Positions 27,496-33,416 of a DNA stretch of 64,000 nucleotides are shown one piece after another. The position numbers and the translations under genes are program-made. A model generated the notes under the pieces. It did no database searches and was not told the DNA's origin. It saw only the letters and a list, made by a program, of their open reading frames with translations. How positions within the stretch are numbered: the stretch's first letter is position 1; every line of letters begins with the position of its first letter. Origin of the DNA: Aurantiacibacter sp. D1-12 (GTDB lineage Bacteria; Pseudomonadota; Alphaproteobacteria; Sphingomonadales; Sphingomonadaceae); NCBI RefSeq assembly GCF_028858515.1, contig NZ_JAPJZJ010000002.1, positions 248,001 to 312,000 on the forward strand. Reading direction: 5' to 3'.

Positions 27496-28482
27496 TCAGG
27501 CTGAACAACTCGCTCCGCCGAGCACGCAAAAGCGCGCGCAATGCGGATGGTTGAGCGACACCGCGCCGTTCGCTTCGGCAATGGTATCGCCGAGATCGAA
27601 ACCAGGATCATAGGGAAGTAGCGTGCAGGCGACTACTCGCGGCGCAGGTTCTCCCTTGCGGTGGACGACCATACGGCTGCTCGCACACATCTGGTCATCG
27701 GGCGATTTGCCAAGGATGCCCCAGCATTCGGTGGTGATTTCGGGCACATCGGCGGCCGCGTCCATCTCCGGAAAGAGCACGAGGCACGAAGGATCGGCGG
27801 CGTCGATGGCGATGCCCTGCGCTTCAAACAGCGCGCCGTAGGCAGAGCGTGCCTGCTCCTGCGTCTCACCCGCTAGGCTGCGCCCGGCAGCGGCGATGGA
27901 GAAGTGGTTGGCGGAGAGCCAGCGCAAACCATCGAGCATCGGTTCCCAGCTGTTGGGGCCACGCTCAGCCTCGTGCACTTCTTGCGTGTGGTGGTCGATA
28001 GAGACGCGGATCGTCAGCCTGTCGCCGTGATCGTGACGGAGGCGCAACAGCTCGGCCTCATGCCGCCGCATCGGCTTCATCGCATTGGACAGCACCAGCA
28101 CTTCGTGCTGGCACCGCAGCGCACCTTCGATCATCGCAATGATGTCCGGATTCATAAACGGCTCGCCGCCGGTGAAACCAATCTCGCGCACATTCAGTGG
28201 GCCGATTTCATCGAGGAAGCGTGCGACATGCTGCGCGCTCATATAGATCAAAGCATCGTTGGTCGGGCTGCTTTCGATATAGCAATTGGCGCAGGCGAGA
28301 TTGCACAGCGTGCCCGTGGCAAACCACAGCGTGTCGAGCTTGCGCAGCCCCACGGTGGCGCGCGCTTCGCCCTTGGCGGTGACCAGCGGATCGACGAATT
28401 TCTCGCGCGCGAGTTCTTCGGCTTCGACAGCGAAAGGAGACGCGCCGGTGGGCACGTTGCGTGACAGACTGCGCGTTGCCAT
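27496..28482 (-). CDS. radical SAM enzyme with Cys-rich C terminus, in an organoarsenical-type cluster
   Basis: The 328-residue protein has CNLACANC (C60, C64, C67) binding the [4Fe-4S]-SAM cluster, GFTGGEP at 102-108 and a TIM-barrel core. The C terminus carries at least six further cysteines (ECW, QMC, VAC, then HCARFC and SCSA), suggesting an auxiliary Fe-S cluster as in SPASM-type enzymes. It differs from ArsS, which begins with a short CxxxCxxC region and ends in DUF3641. The start at 28482 overlaps the stop of the flavoenzyme gene (TGATG); upstream codons lie inside that gene. Its substrate is unknown. Context suggests a step on a methylated arsenical or its adenosyl/ribosyl derivative. 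Confidence 0.8.
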   Translation of the reverse strand: MATRSLSRNVPTGASPFAVEAEELAREKFVDPLVTAKGEARATVGLRKLDTLWFATGTLCNLACANCYIESSPTNDALIYMSAQHVARFLDEIGPLNVREIGFTGGEPFMNPDIIAMIEGALRCQHEVLVLSNAMKPMRRHEAELLRLRHDHGDRLTIRVSIDHHTQEVHEAERGPNSWEPMLDGLRWLSANHFSIAAAGRSLAGETQEQARSAYGALFEAQGIAIDAADPSCLVLFPEMDAAADVPEITTECWGILGKSPDDQMCASSRMVVHRKGEPAPRVVACTLLPYDPGFDLGDTIAEANGAVSLNHPHCARFCVLGGASCSA

Positions 28483-29900
28483 CAGAACATCCGGCGGATC
28501 TTGGCGAGGAAGGCAACCCAGCGCTTGGGCCACGCGCCGAACACTGTTGGCTCCCACGCGGCAAAGGCAGCAGCCTTGGTGATCTCCGAACGGGTGGGGT
28601 AAGAAATGATCGCGCCGCCCATATCGAAGGTGCCCGATTTACCGGTAATCGACTGGGTGAGCGGCAGCAACAGCTCGCCCGCATTGACCCCGCAGATGCT
28701 CGCACCGACGACCTTTTTGCCCTTCAACATGACTTTCAGATGTCCTTCGGTCAGGCCTTCTGCAATCGCGCGTTCGTTATGGTCGAAACCTTCCTTCACC
28801 ACGTTGAGCTTGTCGCCGAATTTCTCGCGCGCTTCGGTCTCGGTCATGCCGATCTGGGCGACTTCGGGCTCAGTGTAGGTGCACCAGGGCAGCGCCTTGA
28901 AATCGACTTTCGTCGGCAGTCCAAGCGCAATTTCGAGTACCACGTTCGAGCCTTCGTAGCCCGAGACATGCGTCAGCCGCGGCCCTTCACGGCAATCGCC
29001 GATGGCGTAAATGTGCTTGATTGAAGTCCGACGACGATCATCGACCTTGATACCATTGCGGCCGAGTTCAATGCCGAGTTCTTCGAGACCGTAGCCTTCG
29101 GTGCGCGCCTTGCGACCCACGGCGAGGAGCAGGTGGCTGCCAGTCACGTCTTCACCTCTATCGGTGGTGACAGTCACGCTGCCATCCGCGCCCTTTGCGA
29201 CTTTGTCAGCTTTACCCTTCACGAAACGCACACCCTCGCGCTTCATGACATCAACTACGACGGCGACGGAGTCGCGATCATCGCGGCCCATCGGTTCGCC
29301 CGGTTCGATCACGGTCACTTCGCTACCCAGGCGGCGAAAACTCTGCGCCATCTCCATGCCGATCACACCGCCGCCAATGATGACGAGGTGCTCGGGCTGA
29401 TCGGTCAGGTCGAACAGGTTTTCATTGGTGAGGTAGTCCACATCGTCCAGCCCTGGAATGGGTGGAACGAACGGCCCAGAGCCCGTCGCAATGACGATGC
29501 GCGGTGCGGTCAGCTTGCGGCCGCCCACGGTCACTTCCCTGGGTCCGGTGATTTTCGCCCAGTCCTGAATGACCTCGCAGCCCATCTCCTCGAACCGCTC
29601 AACACTGTCATGCGGCTCGATATGCGCGATGGCATCGTGGACGTGTTTGTGCACGCCGGACCAGTCGACCACAGGTGCGGCCAGTTGCACGCCCGCGCGC
29701 TTTTCTTCGCGCGCTTCGGCAGCGCGCTTGGCGGAGGCGATCAGCGCCTTAGAGGGGACACAGCCATTGTTGAGGCATTCGCCGCCCATCTTGTGGCCTT
29801 CGATCAGCGCGGTCTTCAGCCCGAACAGCGCGCAGCCACCCGCTGCGGTCAGTCCGGCAGCACCGCCGCCGATTACGATAACGTCATGTGAGTATTCCAT
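28482..29900 (-). CDS. MerA/dihydrolipoamide dehydrogenase-like FAD disulfide oxidoreductase
   Basis: The 472-residue enzyme has the FAD-binding motif VIVIGGGAAGLTAA at the N terminus and the redox disulfide GGECLNNGCVPSKAL. An NAD(P)H domain follows (VIIGGGVIGMEMA), and the dimerisation domain has VKEGFDHNERAIAEG. It lacks the N-terminal heavy-metal domain and the C-terminal vicinal cysteines of mercuric reductase, so a Hg(II) role is doubtful. It was started at 29900 behind GGGGACCT. It is divergent from arsM and overlaps the radical SAM gene, so it may supply reducing power in the arsenical pathway (inference). Confidence 0.85.
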   Translation of the reverse strand: MEYSHDVIVIGGGAAGLTAAGGCALFGLKTALIEGHKMGGECLNNGCVPSKALIASAKRAAEAREEKRAGVQLAAPVVDWSGVHKHVHDAIAHIEPHDSVERFEEMGCEVIQDWAKITGPREVTVGGRKLTAPRIVIATGSGPFVPPIPGLDDVDYLTNENLFDLTDQPEHLVIIGGGVIGMEMAQSFRRLGSEVTVIEPGEPMGRDDRDSVAVVVDVMKREGVRFVKGKADKVAKGADGSVTVTTDRGEDVTGSHLLLAVGRKARTEGYGLEELGIELGRNGIKVDDRRRTSIKHIYAIGDCREGPRLTHVSGYEGSNVVLEIALGLPTKVDFKALPWCTYTEPEVAQIGMTETEAREKFGDKLNVVKEGFDHNERAIAEGLTEGHLKVMLKGKKVVGASICGVNAGELLLPLTQSITGKSGTFDMGGAIISYPTRSEITKAAAFAAWEPTVFGAWPKRWVAFLAKIRRMF

Positions 29901-29930
29901 AGGTCCCCGCGTGCGTAACTCATCTGGGCT

Positions 29931-29949
29931 AGGAAACGAAACGCTTCCT
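29931..29949. promoter_or_regulatory. near-palindrome between the divergent arsenical operons
   Basis: AGGAAaCG-AAA-CGcTTCCT has 8-bp arms with one mismatch pair and lies midway between the two divergent starts (29900 and 29991). It is a possible operator controlling both arms. No regulator gene is in the cluster. Confidence 0.35.
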
Positions 29950-29990
29950 GTTATGGCCATGCACTTCGCCGAAAAGGGACATTCGGTTTC

Positions 29991-31040
29991 ATGAATCTCG
30001 AAAACTCACAGGACTATTACGGCAAGGTACTGGGCGGATCGGCCGATCTGCGCACCGATGCCTGCTGCACTTTTGAAATGCCGAGCGATGCCGTCGCCAG
30101 AGCGCTGAAGAATGTGCACGAAGAGGTGAAAGCGCGCTACTACGGCTGCGGACTTGTAGTGCCGCAAGCGCTCGAGAGTTGCCGCGTGCTCGACCTTGGT
30201 TCGGGCAGCGGGCAGGACGCCTATTTGCTGGCGCAGCTGGTCGGACCGAACGGCCATGTGACCGGCGTCGACGCCACTCCTGAGCAGCTCGCCGTCGCGC
30301 GCGAATATCAGGGCTGGCATGCCGAGCAGTTCGGCTTTGCCAATGTCGAATTTGTCGAAGGCGATATCGAGAAACTGGGCGAGCTTGGCCTTGAAGAAGG
30401 TAGCTTCGATGTCATCGTATCCAACTGCGTCATCAATCTTGTCGCTGACAAGGAAGCCGTATTCCGCGCCGCGCATCGGCTGCTGAAGCCGGGAGGCGAG
30501 CTGTACTTTTCCGATGTCTATGCCGACCGCCGCGTGCCCGAGCATCTGCTGAGCGATCCGGTGCTGCACGGCGAGTGCCTTTCCGGCGCGCTTTATTGGG
30601 GCGATTTTGATCGCCTCGCCAAGGCCGCCGGTTTCGCCGATCCGCGCCTTGTCACTGATCGCCCTCTCGGCATCAACGACCGCGAAGTGAAGGCCAAACT
30701 GGACGGGATCAATTTCGTCTCCGCCACCTATCGCCTGTTCAAGCTCGATGGACTTGAACCGCAGTGCGAGGATTATGGGCAGGCCGTGCGCTACAAAGGA
30801 ACGCTGGAGGGCCACCCACGCGTGTTGGAACTCGACGCGCATCACGCGATCGAGGCGGGGCGCACGTTCCCGATCTGCGGCAACAGCTGGCTAATGCTCG
30901 CCGAAACTCGCTTTGCCGAGCATTTTGAATTTATCGGCGACTTCTCGAAGCACTACGGGGTATTTCCCGGCTGCGGGACCGATGCACCGTTCGGCCAGTC
31001 GGCGAGTGAAAACACGTCGGCGGGCACGGCCTGTTGCTGA
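29991..31040 (+). CDS. arsM: arsenite S-adenosylmethionine methyltransferase
   Basis: The 349-residue protein methylates As(III) stepwise using SAM. The SAM-binding motif is VLDLGSGSGQDAYLL (66-80). The three As-binding cysteines of ArsM are present: C53 (YYGCG), C146 (SNCV) and C196 (GECLSGAL). A Cys pair is at 25-26 and another ends the protein (TACC); such C-terminal pairs recur in ArsM. It is first in a two-gene operon with the SDR (7-bp overlap) and divergent from the flavoenzyme. No arsR, arsB or arsC lies nearby, so biosynthesis of an organoarsenical seems likelier than simple resistance. Confidence 0.93.
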   Translation: MNLENSQDYYGKVLGGSADLRTDACCTFEMPSDAVARALKNVHEEVKARYYGCGLVVPQALESCRVLDLGSGSGQDAYLLAQLVGPNGHVTGVDATPEQLAVAREYQGWHAEQFGFANVEFVEGDIEKLGELGLEEGSFDVIVSNCVINLVADKEAVFRAAHRLLKPGGELYFSDVYADRRVPEHLLSDPVLHGECLSGALYWGDFDRLAKAAGFADPRLVTDRPLGINDREVKAKLDGINFVSATYRLFKLDGLEPQCEDYGQAVRYKGTLEGHPRVLELDAHHAIEAGRTFPICGNSWLMLAETRFAEHFEFIGDFSKHYGVFPGCGTDAPFGQSASENTSAGTACC

Positions 31041-32035
31041 AGATTCTCGTCACCGGCGCCGCTGGACTGATCGGCGGCGATGTCTGCGCGCGCCTTGTGG
31101 CGAAGGGCCATGCGGTGACCGGCATGGTCCGTCGTAATCCGGAGGTGCGCGGCAATGATGGCGCGCTGGTAGAAGGTGTCACGACCGTTTCAGGCGATGT
31201 GACGCTGCCGCTGATGGGGCTGGAGCCTGAGCCGCATGATGTCGTCATCCACTGCGCCGCCAGCCTGGAATTCGACGCCCCCGAGGAAGAATTGCAGGCT
31301 ATCAATGTCGAGGGCACAAAAAACGCGCTCGCCTATGCCAAGGAAGCGGGTGCAGCGTTCCTGCATGTCAGCACGGCCTATGTCTGCGGGCAGGTGAGCG
31401 GCGCGGTGCCGGAAGGCCCAGTGCCTGCCGATACGCAGTTCACCAACCGATACGAAGCCAGCAAGGCACGGGCAGAAGCGGCGGTTGCCGCGAGTGGTCT
31501 TCCCTTCGCGGTTGCTCGCCCCTCCATTGTGCTCGGCCACAGCAAGACCGGCGTGATCCGCGACTTCCCCTCGCTCTGCAACGTCTTCCGCCTGATGGCG
31601 CGCGGCAAGGTGACGCAGTTTCCCTGTGTACCCGGATCAACACTCGATCTCGTGCCCATCGACCATGTGGCCGAGGGCATTGCCCGCCTTGCAGAGCGCA
31701 TGAACGAGGCGAATGGAGCATACTTCCATCTTGTCGCCAGCGATCCGCTTCCGGCTGCCGAACTGGCTTACGGTGTACAGCGCGTCGAGCACTTCCCCGA
31801 CCCGCAAGTTGTGTCACCGCAGGACTATGATCCGACATCACTGCGTCCCGCCGAGCAGATGCTTGCCGGGCGGATGCTCGGGACGTTTGGAGCCTATTTC
31901 ACCCGCGATCCGCAGTTCGATGACGGCCGCTTCCGCGCGGTGACGGGCTTCGAATGCAATCCGACCGATAGCGCTTGGCTGGACCGGCTTATCGCGCACG
32001 GGATCGAAGCGGACTACCTGCCCAAGCCGCGTTAA
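31034..32035 (+). CDS. extended SDR / NAD-dependent epimerase-type protein
   Basis: The 333-residue Rossmann enzyme has VTGAAGLIGG for the dinucleotide and the catalytic Y-x-x-x-K as YEASK, with HVSTAYVCG supplying the Ser/Thr. The C-terminal half is diverged, as in fatty acyl-CoA reductase-like or sterol dehydrogenase-like SDRs. It begins with TTG seven bases inside the end of arsM, a coupled start. It ends in a 4-bp overlap with the convergent glycosyltransferase. In this cluster it could reduce or epimerise a sugar or lipid moiety attached to arsenic (inference). Confidence 0.8.
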   Translation: MLKILVTGAAGLIGGDVCARLVAKGHAVTGMVRRNPEVRGNDGALVEGVTTVSGDVTLPLMGLEPEPHDVVIHCAASLEFDAPEEELQAINVEGTKNALAYAKEAGAAFLHVSTAYVCGQVSGAVPEGPVPADTQFTNRYEASKARAEAAVAASGLPFAVARPSIVLGHSKTGVIRDFPSLCNVFRLMARGKVTQFPCVPGSTLDLVPIDHVAEGIARLAERMNEANGAYFHLVASDPLPAAELAYGVQRVEHFPDPQVVSPQDYDPTSLRPAEQMLAGRMLGTFGAYFTRDPQFDDGRFRAVTGFECNPTDSAWLDRLIAHGIEADYLPKPR

Positions 32036-32757
32036 CGCACGTCCGGGTAGTACCGCTCCAGACGTTTCTTCGCGCCGAGCCCCCACAGGAAGCCGACCTT
32101 CAGATAAATCCAGTTCGCTTTGAGCGGGCCCCATTTAGCGATCCGGCGGTCAGAAGTCTCCACCCGGTCGGAAATCATCTTCACCCGACCAAAGCGCGTC
32201 ATACGGATGCACAGGTCGGCCTCTTCCATCACCTTCGCTGCCGGATCGCAGCCCCCGCTTTCCAGGAACTGCGTGCGGCGGAAGAACATCGCGTGGTCGC
32301 CGAACAGCAAACGGCAACCTTTGAAGAACAGGTGGGGACGGAACAGCAGCGGCGCGTACCAGGTTTTCGCCCAATTATGCAGCGTGGTGCCCCAGCGCGT
32401 TTTTTCCGGCCCGCGCAGGATCGGGGTGAAGCCCGCAAGGCTGATTGCGGGATCAGACAGCGTCCGCTCGATAGCATGGATAAAATCAAGCGGGGGGACC
32501 GTGTCGGCATGCAGCACCACGACATAGTCGCCGTCTGCAGCATCAACTCCGGCGTTAATCTGCCGCCCCCTACCCGCAGCGGTCTGCACAGTGCGCCACC
32601 CCTGCGCCCGGACAAAATCGAGCGAGCCATCGCTGCTGCTGCCGTCCACCGCGATTACTTCCAACGGTTTCGGATTGAGCTGTGCAAGAACCGCCGCGAC
32701 CTGCGGCAGCACGCGCTCCTCATTGAGCATGGGAATGACAATGGAGGTGCGGCTCAC
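32032..32757 (-). CDS. TIGR04283-type family 2 glycosyltransferase (arsenosugar/rSAM-associated)
   Basis: The 241-residue GT-A protein has SIVIPMLNEE at the N terminus, DGSSSDGS and a DxD as HADT, with an AGRGRQINAG segment, typical of TIGR04283. That family is associated with radical SAM/arsenosugar clusters. GTG 32757 overlaps the stop of the upstream gene (GTGA) and gives the usual N terminus; an ATG at 32775 would add six residues. It is cotranscribed with the TIGR04282 gene. It probably attaches the arsenical ribofuranoside to another sugar or glycerol unit (inference). Confidence 0.85.
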   Translation of the reverse strand: MSRTSIVIPMLNEERVLPQVAAVLAQLNPKPLEVIAVDGSSSDGSLDFVRAQGWRTVQTAAGRGRQINAGVDAADGDYVVVLHADTVPPLDFIHAIERTLSDPAISLAGFTPILRGPEKTRWGTTLHNWAKTWYAPLLFRPHLFFKGCRLLFGDHAMFFRRTQFLESGGCDPAAKVMEEADLCIRMTRFGRVKMISDRVETSDRRIAKWGPLKANWIYLKVGFLWGLGAKKRLERYYPDVR

Positions 32758-33338
32758 GGAACGAGTTCCGGCCATTTCTCGAGATCTTCAGGGCGATCGC
32801 AATCATCCAGTTCACCCAACAGGCGATAGCGTACATTGGCGGCTTTCAGCCGCACTTCGGTCTCGCGCAGCACCTCGTCAGTGCCCCAGCGCATATCTTG
32901 CCACAGGAAGTCGAGCGCGCGGGCAAAGCCGAGTAGATAGTATCCGCCATCGCTCGCCGGGCCGATCACAGCTTCATGGGTCTCAAGCGCGTCGGCAGCC
33001 TCGCGCAGGTGCTGCGCAGTCAGGCCGGGAACATCCGCGCCGAGCAAGATCGCAGGCGCGGGTGCACGCGACAGCCGTGCGCCTAGGTCGCCCTCACCCT
33101 GCTCCACCAGCGCCACATCCTCACCCAGCCATGCGGCAAATTCAGTGTGCGAAGCCCCAGTGGTCCAGACCTGAAACGGCAAGCCGCTTTCACGGATCGT
33201 GGCGACTGTACGCCCGACCAGCCGCCGATGAACCTCTGCCGCACCCGCACCTCCCAACAGCGGAGCAAGCCGCGTTTTCGCCTGCCCAGCAACCGGGAAT
33301 TTGGCGAACAGGGCAATGGTGGGAAGCGTGGAGGTCAT
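32754..33338 (-). CDS. TIGR04282-type transferase (DUF2064, arsenosugar/rSAM-associated)
   Basis: The 194-residue GT-A-like protein has the pattern IALFAKFPVAGQAKTRLAP at the N terminus, LLGADVPGL as the metal-binding strand and GPASDGGYYLLG, diagnostic of DUF2064/TIGR04282. This family is usually paired with TIGR04283 and a radical SAM protein. It may activate or transfer a nucleotide-linked sugar. ATG 33338 follows GAGGGGGG, a strong SD; an earlier in-frame start at 33359 lacks one. It is first in a two-gene operon. Confidence 0.87.
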   Translation of the reverse strand: MTSTLPTIALFAKFPVAGQAKTRLAPLLGGAGAAEVHRRLVGRTVATIRESGLPFQVWTTGASHTEFAAWLGEDVALVEQGEGDLGARLSRAPAPAILLGADVPGLTAQHLREAADALETHEAVIGPASDGGYYLLGFARALDFLWQDMRWGTDEVLRETEVRLKAANVRYRLLGELDDCDRPEDLEKWPELVP

Positions 33339-33416
33339 GCCCCCCTCTAACCGCAACATTGCCTGCTGGCGAGCGGTCCCACGCGCAGCAGCTTGTGAAC
33401 GATCCCCTCTTGGGCT

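Follow-up and report, generated by a model that had tools for sequence, protein, structure and literature searches.

Can an arsenosugar-type pathway run without ArsS, with another radical S-adenosylmethionine (SAM) enzyme in its place? The question is raised by a compact six-gene cluster at positions 27496-33359 of a 64,000-nucleotide stretch of the Aurantiacibacter sp. D1-12 genome (hereafter the window). Here an arsenite methyltransferase (ArsM), two transferase-type proteins related to TIGR04282 and TIGR04283, a flavoenzyme and a short-chain dehydrogenase/reductase (SDR) are encoded together with a radical SAM protein of 328 amino acids (27496..28482, minus strand, counted from an ATG), the proposed substitute for ArsS. 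Arsenosugars and arsenolipids, for whose synthesis ArsS is the known radical SAM enzyme, are major organic forms of arsenic in the sea. An earlier note on this stretch proposed that the host makes an arsenic-containing sugar or lipid by a route in which a non-ArsS radical SAM protein stands in for ArsS. Our analysis leads us to favour, somewhat and from the sequence data, a pathway of the arsenosugar or arsenolipid type whose ArsS step would fall to a separate lineage of radical SAM proteins; that the host makes an arsenosugar is what we infer from this. The argument for substitution is founded on the company that the radical SAM gene keeps, not on sequence kinship.

Gene company of the radical SAM protein

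On three counts the radical SAM protein appears in the slot of ArsS, in agreement with the earlier note: ArsS is missing from the host and its family, the protein tracks both transferase-type families, and similar partners recur around both radical SAM proteins. Among 149 genomes of the host's family, the host included, none has an ArsS over the cut-off, and 43 carry an orthologue of the radical SAM protein at E < 1e-30 (51 match at E 0.001; one of the 43, G037, is a fragment). A TIGR04283-type gene scoring at least 150 bits is present in exactly the same 43 genomes, a line set after a gap was seen in the scores (150.9 to 85.8 bits), 91 genomes matching at E 1e-15. Strong ArsM is found in 27 genomes of the family, all of them within the 43, a weak match in G099 (E 5.5e-27, residues 64-223) being left out of the count.

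Beyond the family, the radical SAM type is present in 81 of 289 alphaproteobacterial genomes, which belong to 50 families, 45 of these also having TIGR04282. Of these 81 assignments, 63 were verified by identity along most of the protein length, 17 have the profile score as their only basis, and G413, 29% identical over a part only, was kept. TIGR04282 occurs in 74 of the 81 genomes as against 26 of the 208 other alphaproteobacterial genomes, and in ten of the 74, from seven families, the two genes lie within 6 kilobases (kb) of each other by coordinates (G000, which is the host, G014, G234, G240, G242, G309, G313, G332, G346 and G425). True ArsS exceeds its cut-off in only two of the 289 genomes (G161 and G293), both with TIGR04282, whereas in a phylum-wide draw it does so in 89 of 200 genomes; ArsS and the radical SAM type thus have complementary ranges.

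The shared company can also be followed locus by locus. The true ArsS locus L201 encodes a TIGR04282-type protein (128 bits, cut-off 134), a TVP38-flavoenzyme, ArsS, a metallophosphoesterase, a methylthioadenosine (MTA) phosphorylase-like protein (263 bits, cut-off 275) and, by similarity, a TIGR04283-like protein. A second true ArsS locus, L331, combines ArsS (463 bits) with TIGR04282 (207 bits), TIGR04283 (249 bits), a TVP38-flavoenzyme, an MTA-phosphorylase-like gene and an ArsM that is 62% identical to the ArsM of the window. Among the 19 ArsS loci read outside the class, ArsM is present in nine and a TIGR04282-type gene in three. On the side of the radical SAM type, locus L342, from another family, gathers within about 7 kb radical SAM, ArsM, TVP38, flavoenzyme, hydroxylase-like, TIGR04282 and TIGR04283-type genes, and in L343 the TIGR04283-type, TIGR04282, MTA phosphorylase (over cut-off) and radical SAM genes are adjacent. 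Locus L347 holds ArsM and, between a TIGR04282-type and a TIGR04283-type gene, a deep relative of the radical SAM protein (L347:8747-9769); the relative is about 37% identical to members of the radical SAM family, matches their profile over its full length, reaches only 50 bits with the ArsS model and ends in HRCYSCFAYGSSC.

A metallophosphoesterase found in 19 of the 289 genomes, 18 of which carry the radical SAM type or true ArsS, belongs to both ArsS loci L201 and L202. Its gene also neighbours that of the radical SAM protein in 8 of the 66 loci read outside the Erythrobacteraceae (within L106-L113 and L203-L260). Loci L342-L346 were left out of these 66, four having been fetched for the closeness of radical SAM and TIGR04282 genes and one, L342, because arsM is close too. 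In L110, metallophosphoesterase and radical SAM protein lie in a single open frame (L110:1754-3574), a possible natural fusion.

Among close relatives we read the best 80 of 160 loci found (L034-L113), a choice that favours close kin and in which the flanks often ended at contig ends. Within these 80, a TIGR04282-type gene is present in 74, the flavoenzyme in 74, a TIGR04283-type gene in 72, the SDR in 69 and ArsM in 52, a recurrence which argues that the arrangement is not due to chance. In 11 loci the radical SAM gene is followed within about 1.2 kb, on the opposite strand, by a gene from a single phosphorylase family, whose L065 member was identified as MTA phosphorylase, and the host genome encodes one MTA phosphorylase, away from the cluster. 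A fatty-acid-hydroxylase-like gene, a weak match to OlsE below its cut-off, lies near the cluster in 38 of the 80 loci (e.g., L082:4229-5053) and hints at a lipid product; none is present in the window between 33359 and 33478.

Compared with the ArsS pathway (TIGR04167), the cluster has in common ArsM, TIGR04282, TIGR04283-type and flavoenzyme partners together with a CX3CX2C core, and its relatives share TVP38, MTA phosphorylase and the metallophosphoesterase, whereas the added SDR of the window and the hydroxylase-like gene of its relatives set the two systems apart.

Proposed pathway

Taken together, these genes would fit a route of five steps. ArsM, assigned from its family and cysteines, would methylate As(III) to trivalent dimethylarsenic. 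The radical SAM protein would then add the 5'-deoxyadenosyl radical of SAM to arsenic, yielding 5'-deoxy-5'-dimethylarsinoyl-adenosine. This chemistry is reported for ArsS, which a passage of PMC12159101 describes as adenosylating arsenic and whose Synechocystis form, SsArsS, works with SsArsM according to a passage of PMC8552651; for the window protein it is proposed by analogy. The remaining steps are suggested by the gene families and by the recurrence of those genes. An MTA phosphorylase, encoded elsewhere in the host but, in some relatives, close to ArsS or to the radical SAM gene, would take off adenine to leave arsenoribose-1-phosphate, which the TIGR04282 protein may activate to a nucleotide sugar, and the TIGR04283-type transferase may then move the sugar to a glycerol or lipid acceptor. 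More tentatively, the flavoenzyme would probably maintain the reduced state of arsenic or dithiols, and tailoring of the sugar or its acceptor might fall to the SDR.

Kinship of the radical SAM protein

Several lines of evidence weigh against the substitution, and they concern the kinship of the radical SAM protein, the frequent lack of ArsM and the gene neighbourhoods outside the host's family. With respect to kinship, the protein scores 58.5 bits with the ArsS model TIGR04167 (cut-off 300). Its best NCBIfam model is that of the Rv1681 family (NF049973), at 91.6 bits, far under the cut-off of 380 and over a partial alignment (residues 51-225); for the window protein and three others printed, this model outscores that of ArsS. 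Both models are matched at E 1e-8 by all 47 members of the radical SAM family, in which C60, C64 and C67 of the CX3CX2C motif are invariant. The cut-offs exclude the protein from ArsS, from Rv1681 and from the other NCBIfam models. For the Rv1681 family, we found no statement of function among the open-access literature matches listed.

Comparison of profiles with 21 true ArsS sequences returned a probability of 98.9% (E 2e-17, radical SAM residues 44-268). This match lacks specificity: in a control against the radical SAM family profile six other radical SAM proteins scored 69-116, spanning the 88-99 of single ArsS proteins, and the top scorer was one of those six, from L218, at 116. The idea of a special distant relationship to ArsS is accordingly not upheld. 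When both families are aligned together, the three core cysteines coincide with those of ArsS, as do three members of the cysteine-rich C-terminus (C253, C266, C286, C315, C319 and C326), namely C266, C315 and C326, which fall on C247, C298 and C309 of ArsS. The other C-terminal cysteines are offset, C253 (invariant) and C286 (near-invariant) being extra relative to ArsS. The cysteine of the ArsS-invariant SLPCY (C132) aligns with H164 of the radical SAM protein, and the ArsS-invariant HCH of the core motif, YNP and NMPI do not figure among the columns that the two families share. Cut-offs, control and alignment together place the protein outside the ArsS family, and there is no sign that it stands nearer to ArsS than other radical SAM proteins do. 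The designation of the protein as non-ArsS in the earlier note fits this result.

An AlphaFold model of the protein (mean predicted local distance difference test score 92.8) resembles many radical SAM proteins with other functions, the best matches being BlsE, SkfB and SuiB (Z 19.1, 18.7 and 18.5), and among the matches listed no entry is titled ArsS or ArsL. A model of ArsS meets the same folds, so that the fold does not separate functions. Neither the radical SAM protein nor ArsS gave more than weak, partial matches in sequence searches of solved structures. Among plasmids there is one matching record, from Roseomonas (59.7%). A non-alphaproteobacterial candidate for the radical SAM family, G454 (E 4e-16), was dropped as only pieces 23% identical could be aligned.

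The protein could instead act like ArsL of arsinothricin synthesis and transfer the 3-amino-3-carboxypropyl group from SAM onto arsenic. Passages of PMC8552651 and PMC12159101 report ArsL as another radical SAM enzyme that forms a C-As bond, and the arsQML cluster resembles the window in combining a radical SAM protein with ArsM. ArsL has 428 amino acids, however, with cysteines at 194, 198 and 201, as against 328 amino acids with CX3CX2C at 60-67 (a comparison by length and cysteine positions), and the neighbours in the window fit the activation and transfer of a sugar as in the ArsS pathway, whereas those passages name no genes for sugar activation or transfer in arsQML. We regard an ArsL-like reaction as very improbable.

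Clusters without ArsM

A second difficulty for the ArsS-type pathway is the frequent lack of its presumed first enzyme. No strong ArsM is found anywhere in the genome in 16 of the 43 family members with the radical SAM gene, and in 57 of the 81 alphaproteobacterial radical SAM genomes ArsM is lacking at E 1e-25. The survey of relatives suggested in the earlier note bears on the same point: the cluster does recur in relatives, but of 69 loci in which the SDR, flavoenzyme and radical SAM genes are all retained, 17 lack ArsM. This count applies to the stretch read, whole-genome absence being taken from the 149-genome survey only, and ArsM can sit far from the radical SAM gene in the same genome (e.g., G001, G095). 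Placed on the tree, the absence of ArsM takes nine changes, at least five of them forced. The matching presence sets of the family carry their own reservation, as shared descent inflates their significance and the co-occurrence statistics are not corrected for shared ancestry. That so many holders of the radical SAM gene lack ArsM indicates that ArsM is not indispensable, either because methylated arsenic is obtained from outside or because the acceptor is another one.

The latter possibility amounts to a different explanation of the cluster, according to which the acceptor adenosylated by the radical SAM protein is not arsenic but, for instance, a lipid, in the way that HpnH acts on hopene, with phosphorylase, nucleotidyltransferase and glycosyltransferase then building a deoxyribosyl lipid and ArsM being a later, optional neighbour. 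The repeated absence of ArsM from otherwise intact clusters is what this explanation would predict, and it is likewise consistent with the hydroxylase-like gene of 38 loci, with the appearance of HpnH among the weak model matches of 6 of the 47 family members and with the lack of a special sequence tie to ArsS. The confinement of strong ArsM to radical SAM genomes (27 of 27 in the family) argues for arsenic instead, as do the occurrence in a true ArsS cluster (L331) of the ArsM that shares 62% identity with that of the window, and the naming of both TIGR04282 and TIGR04283 as arsenosugar families by NCBI. Moreover, the two alphaproteobacterial genomes with true ArsS are also without ArsM at E 1e-25. 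On balance we consider a non-arsenic acceptor unlikely.

In the class survey, the presence of ArsM is itself read with a limit, since the 32 genomes counted as having it include proteins that align fewer than three of the arsenic-binding cysteines, some possibly misaligned. Where the best ArsM locus of a genome was read (30 genomes), all three are seen in 20, and the radical SAM gene occurs in 16 of those 20. Five ArsM-like genes (L268-L272, from G354, G240, G426, G340 and G432) carry TGA in frame at precisely the position of the third arsenic-binding cysteine, the second being replaced by glycine; these proteins, counted as ArsM by the profile search, are candidate selenoproteins.

Neighbourhoods outside the Erythrobacteraceae

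The third difficulty emerges from the 66 loci outside the Erythrobacteraceae, where TIGR04282 lies near the radical SAM gene in eight, a TIGR04283-type gene in six and ArsM in one. An ApaG-type gene is nearby in 32, often together with TrkH, FolE and MetZ-type genes. The earlier note had held that its proposal would be refuted if the radical SAM and flavoenzyme genes usually occurred apart from arsM and the transferase genes. In part this is so: outside the Erythrobacteraceae 58 of 66 loci are without TIGR04282 and 65 without ArsM nearby, although TIGR04282 is encoded somewhere in 74 of the 81 radical SAM genomes.

These neighbourhoods would be expected if the radical SAM protein had a general alphaproteobacterial function unrelated to arsenic and were in the cluster by chance, the cluster as such serving arsenic methylation for detoxification; most copies outside the Erythrobacteraceae were indeed read without partners beside them. 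Such a general function accords poorly with the genome-wide tie to TIGR04282, with the identical sets of radical SAM and TIGR04283-type genes in the host's family (43 of 43) and with the recurrence of arsenic-type neighbourhoods in several other families, and it seems to us distinctly unlikely.

Organization of the cluster and its other products

All six open reading frames described in the earlier note are present and tightly packed, in the layout it gave of divergent arms, a convergent pair and overlaps; the end of the cluster, placed there at 33338, has to be moved to 33359, where the TIGR04282 gene ends. On the minus strand the flavoenzyme gene (28482..29960) precedes the radical SAM gene with a 1-nucleotide overlap (TGATG). 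Divergent from it across a gap of 30 nucleotides lies arsM (29991..31040, plus strand), which the SDR gene (31034..32035, plus strand, TTG start) overlaps by 7 nucleotides. The TIGR04283-type glycosyltransferase gene (32032..32775, minus strand) is convergent with the SDR gene, with a 4-nucleotide overlap, and overlaps the TIGR04282 gene (32754..33359, minus strand) by 22 nucleotides. The statement that no resistance genes are nearby holds in so far as none was found among the 10 proteins scanned, ArsR, ArsB and ArsC themselves not having been searched; the arsenite exporter Acr3 has no match anywhere in the host genome, although the genome has ArsM.

ArsM (349 amino acids) matches 5evj, the solved arsenite methyltransferase of Chlamydomonas, along its full length (residues 7-347, 337 bits); the window protein differs from it in being bacterial and in belonging to a biosynthetic-type cluster. 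C53, C146 and C196, the arsenic-binding cysteines known for ArsM, are aligned with those of 5evj and, together with C25 and C26, are invariant across 54 sequences, so that the description of ArsM with all three arsenic-binding cysteines is borne out. The protein lies below the NCBIfam cut-offs of NF008823 (174.4 bits, cut-off 263) and of the arsenosugar ArsM NF038099 (84.6 bits, cut-off 400).

As to the transferases, the nucleotidyltransferase-like protein (TIGR04282/DUF2064) passes its curated cut-off (177.4 vs 134 bits), whereas the family-2 glycosyltransferase falls short of that of TIGR04283 (163.8 vs 182 bits) and is better called TIGR04283-related. In the passage of PMC11237643 that mentions it, TIGR04282 is only listed, among soil markers for arsenic or metals. 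The flavoenzyme is a pyridine nucleotide-disulfide oxidoreductase dependent on flavin adenine dinucleotide, with an invariant CxxxxC redox pair (C62/C67), that passes none of the cut-offs of the 25 NCBIfam models listed for it, MerA itself being ruled out (TIGR02053, 304.5 vs 454 bits). It matches MerA no better than lipoamide dehydrogenase (340 bits, cut-off 409) or NF004991 (383 bits, cut-off 620), and the earlier label of a MerA-like enzyme is thus retained only in the sense of a class-I disulfide reductase with CxxxxC. The SDR is an extended, epimerase-like protein of the type dependent on nicotinamide adenine dinucleotide, with the motif YxxxK (Y140, K144).

Implications

A broader proposal, which we put forward tentatively and hold less probable than its opposite, is that a second arsenic-adenosylating radical SAM lineage may have replaced ArsS across the Alphaproteobacteria, many of its owners, without an ArsM of their own, scavenging methylated arsenic or using a different acceptor. 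Among the open-access literature matches listed, no title deals with this radical SAM family or with arsenosugar clusters of the Erythrobacteraceae. Should the substitution be true, surveys based on ArsS would miss a large group of possible alphaproteobacterial producers, and a second enzyme for the arsenic-sugar linkage would be open to study. The repeated loss of ArsM, in turn, would suggest that some bacteria draw on methylated arsenic from other producers.

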